A stretch of DNA of 64,000 nucleotides from assembly GCA_013297885.1 (NCBI GenBank), contig JAAFIR010000011.1, positions 62,001 through 126,000 of the forward strand, read 5' to 3'. Source of the DNA: Leptospirales bacterium (GTDB taxonomy: Bacteria > Spirochaetota > Leptospiria > Leptospirales > Leptospiraceae). Below, piece after piece: positions 7,773-13,485 of this stretch. How positions within the stretch are numbered: position 1 is the first letter of the stretch; the number at the start of each line of letters is the position of its first letter. Both the position numbers and the translations under genes were made by a program. The notes beneath the pieces are model-generated. The model was not told the DNA's origin, did no database searches, and saw only the letters and a program-made list of their open reading frames with translations.

Positions 7773-8987
7773 TTAGGTTAGATCTTTTTTTGAAATTAGA
7801 AAATACATTTCTAGCTCACCTTTATTTTTAGCAGAAATTTTTCCTCTGTTTTCAAAATGAAAATAATTTTTTACTAAATTGAACGTGGCTTCACTTATAT
7901 TGATTTTTCCAACTTCACCAGAAGACTCCATTCTACTTGCAAGATTTACTGTATCTCCCCAAACATCGTAAGCAAATTTTTTATCACCAATTACGCCAGC
8001 TACCAATGGTCCAGAATGAATTCCTATTCGGATATTAAAACAAGCCAAACCTTTTTCTTTTTTTGCACAAAAATCTTTATCCATTAATTCTATGATTTCT
8101 AATGCCGCATAACAAGTATTAACCGCATGTTCAGAAAATTTTTCTGGAACACCTGCCACACACATATAAGAATCACCAATAGTTTTAATTTTTTCTAAAT
8201 TGTATTTGGAAATGATTAAATCAAATTTTTTAAATGCAAAATCTAATTCATTCACAAGTTCTTCTGGGCTCATATTTTCAGAAATTTTTGTAAATCCCTG
8301 AAAATCTGTAAACAGAACAGTTGCTTCTGAAAAATATTCTGGTTTAGTAAAACCATTTTGTTTTAATTCATCAGCAATTTTTTTTGGTAAAATATTTAAA
8401 AGTAAATCATCTGATTTTTTTAAAGCAGATTTTAATAAAGTATCAAAATGAGCATAAGCAGTTTCTGTATAAAATTCATTTTGTTCCAGAATTAATTTCC
8501 ATGCTTCTTTAAAATCAATTTCTTCATGCTCTAAGAATAAAATGCGGATTGATTCTTTCATTTTACTTTCTGCTTGAAATAAAATTCCAAAAGTAAAATC
8601 TTTTCCATATGATTTTCCAACACCCAAAAGCCTAAATAATTTTTCTTTTAAATTTTCTCGGGATGTGATTGAACCATATTTTAAATCTAAAACCCTTGCA
8701 TAAAAAACTTGATTAAACATCTTAAATGTAGTATTAGGATAAGTTTTCACATCAGAATTATTTCGACTATCATGCCATTTTTGAAAAAAATTGTACTTTG
8801 TAATTGTTTTATCCATTTTAGGAAATTCATTTTTTATATTCTCGATCATTTCTAAAATTACTTCTTTAAAACTAATTCCTTCTATTGTTATTGCTTCAAC
8901 CAATTCTTTTTTTTTCAAAATTTCTTCTTCCAAATGAACCAAAAAATAACTGGCTAAAAGATTTGATAATTTTTCTCTAATTTCCAT
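7773..8987 (-). CDS. Class III adenylate cyclase with N-terminal regulatory region
   Basis: Makes cAMP from ATP. The C-terminal half (about 225-400) is a complete class III catalytic domain: FTDFQGF (first metal Asp), KTIGDSYMC (substrate Lys and second metal Asp), HSGPLVAGVIG, and YDVWGDTVNLASRMES with the adenine-selecting Asp and the transition-state Asn and Arg. The Lys/Asp pair indicates ATP rather than GTP. The N-terminal about 200 residues resemble no domain I recognise; they are helical and no transmembrane segment is evident. I start at the ATG at 8987; a TTG four codons earlier (8999) is also open. It converges on the beta-helix lipoprotein gene, 29 nt apart. Confidence 0.88.
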   Translation of the reverse strand: MEIREKLSNLLASYFLVHLEEEILKKKELVEAITIEGISFKEVILEMIENIKNEFPKMDKTITKYNFFQKWHDSRNNSDVKTYPNTTFKMFNQVFYARVLDLKYGSITSRENLKEKLFRLLGVGKSYGKDFTFGILFQAESKMKESIRILFLEHEEIDFKEAWKLILEQNEFYTETAYAHFDTLLKSALKKSDDLLLNILPKKIADELKQNGFTKPEYFSEATVLFTDFQGFTKISENMSPEELVNELDFAFKKFDLIISKYNLEKIKTIGDSYMCVAGVPEKFSEHAVNTCYAALEIIELMDKDFCAKKEKGLACFNIRIGIHSGPLVAGVIGDKKFAYDVWGDTVNLASRMESSGEVGKINISEATFNLVKNYFHFENRGKISAKNKGELEMYFLISKKDLT

Positions 8988-9040
8988 AACTAAATTCAAT
9001 TTTTATATTCTATACCATTTATCAATTGAAAGCGGAGCTT

Positions 9041-9719: not shown

Positions 9720-10097
9720 ATGGACGCATTTAAAACAGAAGTAGCAGATATATTAGGAAATTTAGGAAGTATTTCTAGAGAAATAGCAGATAGCAAAGAT
9801 TTTGGAATAGTAAAAGTTGATGAATCTGGAATAATTCAATTGTACAATAAATATGAATCAGAATTAGCTGGAGTTCCAGTTGCAAATGCAGAAGGTAAAA
9901 ACTTTTTCACACAAGTAGCTATTTGTACTAACAATAGATTATTTTTTGGTAAGTTTAAAGAAGGTGTTGCAAAAAAACAACTTGATGCAACTTTTTATTA
10001 TGTTTTCACATACAAAATGAAACCAACTAACGTAGTCATTCGTCTTTATAGAGATCCATCTGACCACACTAATTGGATTTTCATCAAAAAAAGATAA
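9720..10097 (+). CDS. pyp: Photoactive yellow protein (PAS-fold blue-light receptor)
   Basis: PYP binds p-coumarate as a thioester and enters a photocycle in blue light. This 125-aa protein has the same length and collinear numbering as the classical Halorhodospira halophila protein. Tyr42 and Glu46 (hydrogen bonds to the chromophore) and Cys69 (thioester attachment, in VAICTNN) are all present, as are the PAS landmarks GKNFF, GKFKEGVA, Phe96 and Met100 (YKM) and the C-terminal strand NWIFIKKR. Differences are Ala50 in place of Thr50 and Val52 in place of Arg52, both in the chromophore pocket, so absorption and photocycle speed may differ. No tyrosine ammonia-lyase for making p-coumarate lies in the window; an acyl-CoA ligase occurs 40 kb away in a lipid cluster and is not evidently linked. 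AAGGA precedes the start. Confidence 0.9.
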   Translation: MDAFKTEVADILGNLGSISREIADSKDFGIVKVDESGIIQLYNKYESELAGVPVANAEGKNFFTQVAICTNNRLFFGKFKEGVAKKQLDATFYYVFTYKMKPTNVVIRLYRDPSDHTNWIFIKKR

Positions 10098-11883: not shown

Positions 11884-13485
11884 ATGCCTGAAGTAAATTT
11901 CCTTGAAGAAAAAATCGTTAGTGAAGAAGACACAAATAAAACAGTTTTAGAGATATCCTTAAAGAATGAAATCCCTCATGTTTATGCATGTGGTGGTCAT
12001 GCAAGATGTTCAACTTGTAGAGTTTTGATTTTGGAAGGAATGGAAAATATTCTTCCTAGGAATGAATTAGAATTTTCATTAGCTCAAAAAAAAAGTTTGG
12101 AAGAAAATATCCGTATTGCATGCCAAACAAAAATTAGAGGAAATGTAAAACTCAAAAGACTTGTTATTGACTCAGAAGATATTGAAATTGCTGTCAAACA
12201 TAATGGAAGTTCAGGACGTGAAGAAAAAATTGCAATTATGTTTACTGATGTGAGAGGGTTTACAAATTTTAGTGAAAAAACATTACCCTACGATGTAATT
12301 CATATTTTAAATCGTTACTTTCATAAAATGGGATCTGCCGTTTTAGCAAATAAAGGGTATATAGATAAATATATGGGTGATGGAATGATGTGTTTATTTG
12401 GAATTGAAAATCAAAATAAAGAAGAAATTGCAATTGGGGCTATTAAAGCTGCTTTTAAAATGATTGAAGAATTAGATACTTTGAATTTGTATTTAGAAAA
12501 AAACTTTCATGTGAAATTTGAAATTGGAATTGGAATTCATTTTGGTTCAGTGATACTTGGTGAGATTGGTCATCCTGAAAAAAAAGATTTTACTGCTATA
12601 GGTGATAATGTAAATTTTGCAAGTAGAATTGAAAGCACTACAAAAAAAGCTGGTGCAAAGATTTTGATCTCTGATGAATTTTACCAAATTATAAAAAATA
12701 GAATTGAAAAAGGTAGATCCTTTGTTACAAATCTAAAAGGTAAAACTGGAAAATTTAAACTTCACGAAATAATTCATTTTTCAAAAAAACATAATTCTCT
12801 AGAAGTTCTAGAAAGTTTTTTAAACGAAAAAATTCCTATCACAGACGGACCGGGATATTTGAGACTAGCTTTTCATGATGCAAGTAATTATGATTATAGA
12901 TCAGAAAAAGGCGGTTTAAATGGATCCATTCAATTTGAATTAGATCGAGATGAAAATAGAGGATTAAGAAAATTTGTTGAAAATTTAATTCTATTTCAAA
13001 AAAATCTTTCTGAAAAAAATATTGTTATCAGTTTACCTGATTTAATTGCATATGCCGCAAAAATTTCTTTGGAAAAATTAGGTGGACCCAAAATAGAACT
13101 GACTCTAGGAAGAAAAGAAGCTACAAATGAAGGTCCAAAAATCCACACACCACATGAACATTTTACAGTAGAAGGTTTAATTTCAGAATTTGAAAAAATG
13201 AAATTTACAGTTAAAGATTTAGTTGTTTTATCTGGAGCTCATTCTGTAGGTAAGCAAAATGAAATTGCTTTTACAGAAAATCCTTATCAGTTTGATAATT
13301 CTTATTTTAAAAAATTATCTGAAACACCTTTTGATAGCTCTTTTCTAGAAACAGATAAAACTCTACTAAATCATCCTGACACAAAAAAATTTGTAGAATT
13401 ATTTTCACATGATAATCAATTTTTTTTAAAAGAATTTAAAATTTCTTTTGAAAAATTACTAAATCTTGGGTTTCATAAATATTAA
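11884..13485 (+). CDS. Ferredoxin / adenylate cyclase / haem peroxidase three-domain fusion
   Basis: The 533-aa protein joins three complete domains. Residues 1-95 are a plant-type 2Fe-2S ferredoxin with ligands Cys36, Cys42, Cys45 and Cys80 (CGGHARCSTC...ACQT). Residues about 114-298 are a class III cyclase: metal ligands Asp122 and Asp166, Lys162 and Thr237 in the purine-selecting positions, Asn244 and Arg248 for the transition state; all are kept, so cAMP synthesis is expected. Residues about 318-533 are a class I (ascorbate/cytochrome c type) haem peroxidase: distal Arg327, Phe330 (Trp in cytochrome c peroxidase) and His331 in RLAFHDAS, proximal His453 in LSGAHSVGK, Asp491, and FDNSYFKKL. 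The proximal Trp of the family appears to be Phe463. There is no signal peptide, so it is cytoplasmic. A cyclase gated by redox state or peroxide is the natural inference. The reading frame is uninterrupted throughout. Confidence 0.92.
   Translation: MPEVNFLEEKIVSEEDTNKTVLEISLKNEIPHVYACGGHARCSTCRVLILEGMENILPRNELEFSLAQKKSLEENIRIACQTKIRGNVKLKRLVIDSEDIEIAVKHNGSSGREEKIAIMFTDVRGFTNFSEKTLPYDVIHILNRYFHKMGSAVLANKGYIDKYMGDGMMCLFGIENQNKEEIAIGAIKAAFKMIEELDTLNLYLEKNFHVKFEIGIGIHFGSVILGEIGHPEKKDFTAIGDNVNFASRIESTTKKAGAKILISDEFYQIIKNRIEKGRSFVTNLKGKTGKFKLHEIIHFSKKHNSLEVLESFLNEKIPITDGPGYLRLAFHDASNYDYRSEKGGLNGSIQFELDRDENRGLRKFVENLILFQKNLSEKNIVISLPDLIAYAAKISLEKLGGPKIELTLGRKEATNEGPKIHTPHEHFTVEGLISEFEKMKFTVKDLVVLSGAHSVGKQNEIAFTENPYQFDNSYFKKLSETPFDSSFLETDKTLLNHPDTKKFVELFSHDNQFFLKEFKISFEKLLNLGFHKY

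Follow-up and report, generated by a model that had tools for sequence, protein, structure and literature searches.

A ferredoxin, class III cyclase and haem peroxidase in one chain: a candidate link between hydrogen peroxide and cAMP in Leptospirales

What might a single polypeptide do that joins an iron-sulphur electron carrier, a nucleotide cyclase and a haem peroxidase? The question is raised by an open reading frame in the window (the whole stretch of 64,000 nucleotides of Leptospirales DNA analyzed here), which runs on the forward strand from 11884 to 13485, from ATG to stop without interruption over 533 codons; the complementary frame on the reverse strand of this interval holds many stops. 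The original prediction had read a ferredoxin, a class III cyclase and a class I haem peroxidase in this one frame, and that architecture is borne out by three Pfam domains, each above its curated cut-off: Fer2 at residues 13-84 (E 5e-9), Guanylate_cyc (PF00211) at 112-290 (E 3e-26) and peroxidase (PF00141) at 321-509 (E 1e-34). Accordingly, we delimit a [2Fe-2S] ferredoxin domain at residues 1-92 (11884..12159; Fer2, PF00111), a class IIIb nucleotide cyclase domain at residues 112-299 (12217..12780) and a class I haem peroxidase domain at residues 303-530 (12790..13473), all on the forward strand. The ferredoxin and the cyclase are connected by a short and conserved linker of about 19 residues (93-111; 12160..12216), and in this region R92, L93, D96, D99 and G111 are at least 90% conserved across 30 aligned rows. 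This is the site where class III cyclases can bear a transducer element, a role that the linker may share. Only a few residues lie at the junction of cyclase and peroxidase. No transmembrane-like segment emerged from the hydropathy of the fusion protein, and a scan for promoter and terminator at the gene gave no signal above that of shuffled sequence.

The iron-sulphur, cyclase and haem-site residues named in the original prediction are all found in the fusion. The ferredoxin cysteines Cys36, 42, 45 and 80 follow the CX5CX2C spacing of the adrenodoxin/ISC type, a profile search of the PDB matched, among others, E. coli Fdx (1i7h), and the four cluster cysteines are kept in every one of the 29 aligned ferredoxin-cyclases that extend over this region. 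In the cyclase, Asp122 and Asp166 (metal), Lys162, and Asn244 and Arg248 (transition state) are in place, and to these we add Thr237 at the second adenine-contact position, which was absent from the earlier residue list. Together Lys162 and Thr237 make up a K/T substrate pair, which we take to indicate class IIIb, and the residues point to ATP as the probable substrate and cAMP as the product. The cyclase residues are not intact everywhere. In the peroxidase fusion at L014:550-2163 the lysine is replaced by Gln and the transition-state arginine by Lys, so an active cyclase is not required in every copy; to judge from these replacements, the L014 cyclase is probably dead or altered.

Structure prediction of the full chain agrees with the assignment of both larger domains. 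With the ten known fusions as alignment, AlphaFold2 reached a mean pLDDT of 78 and a pTM of 0.47, and with 30 rows (ferredoxin-cyclase relatives and two peroxidases included) 87.7 and 0.61, in models in which cofactors are absent and the relative placement of the domains is unreliable. In Foldseek searches CyaC of S. platensis (1wc3/1wc1) was matched by the cyclase region, with TM 0.81-0.88 on target, and ascorbate peroxidases (APX) by the C-terminal region, with TM 0.77-0.79.

The active site of the peroxidase domain bears on how the three parts might work together. By sequence, this domain is closest to APX among PDB entries (E ~1e-20), and it shares with APX and cytochrome c peroxidase (CcP) the fold, the distal Arg/His/Asn and the proximal His/Asp. 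Distal Arg327, Phe330 and His331 and proximal His453 are invariant in the ten fusion domains, and proximal Asp491 is present in all nine copies that reach that position. Asn358, not in the earlier residue list, aligns with the catalytic Asn71 of APX and is kept in nine of the ten fusions, with His in its place in L063. We considered whether the distal asparagine had been lost in the g6 lineage and rejected the idea: only a GGxNGS loop on the distal side is degenerate, being lost in the g6/g10 lineage, and the residue that matches APX Asn71 is the conserved N358. Unlike APX and CcP, the fusion carries Phe in place of both the distal and the proximal Trp, as had been predicted, lacks the Arg172 loop and is joined to a cyclase. 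The distal Trp of class I (W41 in APX, W51 in CcP) corresponds to Phe330 in 10/10 fusions and in both Oligoflexales relatives discussed below, and the proximal Trp191 of CcP corresponds to Phe463 here and to Phe, Met or Tyr in relatives. Since the distal Trp is missing but overall similarity is greatest to class I, "class I-like" is the safe wording for this domain. A six-residue deletion spans APX Arg172 and the position of APX Lys30 is occupied by Ile319; with the proximal Trp also replaced, both the ascorbate site and the Trp191 route are absent. The domain can thus be expected, from its residues, to cleave peroxide, yet it is without the known points of electron entry. The missing ascorbate-site Arg and CcP electron-entry Trp make the ferredoxin fused to the same protein a plausible donor to the peroxidase haem. 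The proposal that the ferredoxin serves as donor, one of two options in the original prediction, gains support in this way, although the electron transfer itself is something that we infer. Class I peroxidases of the Trp type that are followed by ankyrin-like repeats were also found, in Planctomycetota and Myxococcales (L035, L036, L039-L041).

The same features may be interpreted without any relay of electrons. The peroxidase domain could bind haem and a ligand (H2O2, NO, CO or O2) and shift the cyclase conformationally, with the ferredoxin as a separate redox input. Such a sensor would fit the very short link, the peroxidase beginning a few residues after the cyclase ends, and also the quick divergence of this domain, in which the distal loop of g6/g10 is partly lost and the haem ligands stay. 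However, the full acid-base set (Arg, His, Asn) is retained, for which a simple sensor of gases or ligands would have no use, and we consider this scenario rather unlikely, if the most serious of the competing ones.

How widespread is the fusion? A search with the peroxidase domain matched 10 of 393 genomes of the phylum, all in the order of the Leptospiraceae, and each match shares its frame with a cyclase and, save for one broken copy, with a ferredoxin. The three-domain protein is thereby present in 10 of 30 genomes of the order, from four genera and two families: all four genomes of its own genus, all four of genus g6, and one each of g10 and g15. A scan of genome contigs with the peroxidase sequence of the fusion alone returned zero matches; the alignment-based scan succeeded, and recovered fusions only in bacterial MAGs, either labelled as Leptospiraceae or without a taxon name. 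The broken copy, at L063:9458-10955 (genome G179), is split by frame shifts, which are either sequencing errors of a MAG or the mark of a decaying gene. The original prediction had left room for a mis-assembly of separate genes. The same joins recur in nine other genomes, in separate assemblies and at 28-63% identity depending on the region, and so a mis-assembly is ruled out.

Identity to the reference fusion is 28-43% in the peroxidase domain and 44-63% in the ferredoxin-cyclase part, the former thus diverging faster. Comparison within a genus shows purifying selection on the peroxidase domain: in two pairs from genus g1 its dN/dS is 0.07-0.08, next to 0.04-0.17 for the ferredoxin and cyclase domains in pairs from that genus; with greater distance between the members of a pair, dN/dS rises to 0.10-0.30 or is saturated. 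In the tree of peroxidase domains all fusions fall in one clade (support 86/84), and their nearest relatives among the sequences found are free-standing peroxidases of Oligoflexales MAGs (L032, L034). This pattern suggests a single capture of the peroxidase by the fusion lineage, with moderate support only because of the long branches in the tree. The ferredoxin-cyclase tree is poorly resolved, and one clade each for the peroxidase and the reductase types (see below) is not rejected (AU p 0.24 and 0.23).

To place the fusion within its family, 30 genomes of the order and 393 of the phylum were searched under strict cut-offs with a profile of the ferredoxin-cyclase part (A3), which matched in 24 and 37 of them, respectively. 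The 44 ferredoxin-cyclase proteins were sorted by architecture, three being left unclassified (two at contig ends, plus that of genome G007). The peroxidase is the partner in ten. In 12 others a C-terminal FAD/NAD-binding reductase replaces it (L064, L066-L075, L089), with NAD_binding_1 in 12 of 12 and a weaker match to the FAD-binding domain. Seven more have a membrane domain of several helices at the N-terminus (L081, L082, L094, L095, L097-L099), assigned by hydropathy and, for L095, by eye; three have no further domain (L065, L096, L101) and one has a single transmembrane segment (L076). Two smaller groups were also observed: four proteins with a C-terminal YceI partner (L077-L080, in genomes G179, G055, G164 and G080), assigned by Pfam in three cases and by eye in L080, and four that belong to other families of spirochaetes and carry a Cys-rich DUF2769 at the N-terminus (L090-L093; L093 below the cut-off). 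YceI binds quinone-like isoprenoids. More than one version may occur in the same genome, since G190 holds the peroxidase and the reductase versions, and three g6 genomes the peroxidase and the YceI versions. Elsewhere, longer ferredoxin-cyclases with extra N-terminal sequence are found on plasmids of R. indicum and Phyllobacterium, and a bare ferredoxin-cyclase in Hymenobacter. An R. etli plasmid, pRsp8C3c, encodes a ferredoxin-cyclase-Rieske protein (L085:2986-4380), in which two different [2Fe-2S] domains flank the cyclase.

The reductase- and YceI-type sisters share with our fusion a common core, the order of domains and a C-terminal partner of comparable size, and differ from it in bearing a reductase or YceI, not a peroxidase. 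Most annotated partners of the core are electron-moving or redox-cofactor-binding domains. With the partner swapped among relatives and the core constant, the ferredoxin seems to be a common hub for electrons, one that sets the cyclase and can be joined to one partner or another.

This comparison also bears on two further readings of the fusion. The peroxidase might serve as local protection, scavenging H2O2 and so shielding a peroxide-sensitive cluster, and the cyclase would then report a state of the ferredoxin that is set by other reductants of the cell. Its catalytic residues are indeed intact, and it is the sole PF00141 peroxidase of the host genome, although one catalase is present. A scavenger, however, depends on an efficient donor of electrons, and this domain has neither an ascorbate site nor the CcP Trp; moreover, the partners found in the sister proteins are not scavengers. 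We therefore regard a protective function as improbable. Even less probable, in our judgement, is that the domains are fused without functional coupling, the junction being a tether or an evolutionary leftover, as the damaged cyclase site of L014 and the frame shifts of L063 might suggest. Against this, the fusion is kept across four genera and two families, its active sites are preserved, pairs from within a genus show purifying selection, and the core has been repeatedly paired with redox domains.

Known systems provide a framework for the reading that we prefer, in which electrons pass between ferredoxin and haem. The soluble class IIIb CyaC of Arthrospira/Spirulina platensis (PDB 1wc0-1wc6) resembles the fusion in its cyclase fold and K/T pair and differs from it in its regulatory domains. 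The class III cyclase CyaC of S. meliloti bears two haem B within its 6TM domain, and its activity shifts with the redox state of quinones (PMC10463352); in a cluster of class IIIb cyclases described by Beltz et al., a ferredoxin follows an SDH-like haem anchor and precedes the catalytic domain (PMC4821796). The fusion resembles the former, and the haem-anchored cluster at large, as a class III cyclase with a redox centre as input, and the latter in that a ferredoxin directly precedes a class IIIb cyclase; the layout of that cluster, membrane domain, ferredoxin and cyclase, is itself found in the same spirochaete order (L081, L082). Purified S. meliloti CyaC reportedly contains a binuclear iron-sulphur cluster as well. 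Unlike these 6TM haem-anchored enzymes, the fusion is predicted to be soluble, lacks an N-terminal dihaem anchor and has a haem peroxidase attached after the cyclase. Class IIIb cyclases linked to a ferredoxin have been described, as has a haem-anchored cyclase under redox control, and it is the haem peroxidase that appears to be new as a partner: in the open-licence literature we found no report of a ferredoxin-cyclase-peroxidase fusion, nor any description of the reductase or YceI versions.

The genomic surroundings say little about the pathway that the fusion serves. No neighbour is common with other fusion loci except through cross-matches of cyclase domains, and no pathway is indicated. 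A second class III cyclase lies 2.9 kb away on the reverse strand (7773-8999; 408 aa, its N-terminal half outside the cyclase part). It adjoins, together with small ORFs, a homologue of photoactive yellow protein (9720-10097 on the forward strand; PDB 1gsv, E 1e-21) in which the chromophore Cys is present. Such proteins are known in Leptospira, where they have been reported to adjoin chemoreceptors (PMC9664959). Across the host genome, 47 class III cyclase matches and 26 cNMP-binding stretches were counted.

We put forward that the redox state of the cluster sets a class IIIb adenylate cyclase and that the C-terminal peroxidase makes this state dependent on H2O2, a reading to which we assign a probability of roughly 60%. 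The protein would be a soluble, probably homodimeric cyclase whose activity depends on whether the [2Fe-2S] ferredoxin at its N-terminus is reduced or oxidized. Oxidation of the peroxidase haem by H2O2 would yield compound I, which could draw electrons from the reduced cluster within the chain or of the dimer partner; as the ferredoxin passes from reduced to oxidized, the cAMP output of the cyclase would change, to be read by the many cyclic-nucleotide-binding proteins of the cell. We infer the loading of the cofactors, the transfer of electrons from cluster to haem, the coupling to the cyclase, the use of ATP and the direction of the response. The original prediction of a cytosolic redox or peroxide gauge that sets cAMP thereby gains comparative support, from a core paired with redox domains and from the redox regulation of S. 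meliloti CyaC (PMC10463352), and the coupling remains its conjectural part.

A broader proposal, to which we give an even chance, is that the ferredoxin-cyclase core acts as a general receiver from redox state to cAMP, in which the electron occupancy of the ferredoxin is the signal and the attached domain picks the input. The core of the sister proteins would be driven by a FAD/NAD-binding reductase, YceI, a membrane anchor that probably holds haem, or a Rieske domain, and the inputs might accordingly be pyridine nucleotides through the reductase, quinones through the membrane anchor and perhaps YceI, and another iron-sulphur chain through the Rieske domain. With H2O2 as the input of the peroxidase, the fusion would be a single-chain converter in which a real flow of electrons from cluster to haem turns H2O2 into cAMP. 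Known H2O2 sensors rely mostly on thiols or on metal oxidation in transcription factors. If our proposal holds, the fusion would, in contrast, link peroxide catalytically to a second messenger by way of a haem peroxidase, an iron-sulphur cluster and a cyclase. The set of partners, namely reductase, peroxidase, YceI, membrane anchor and Rieske domain, offers a ready comparison of one output domain under varied redox inputs, through which ferredoxin control of a class III cyclase becomes directly testable.
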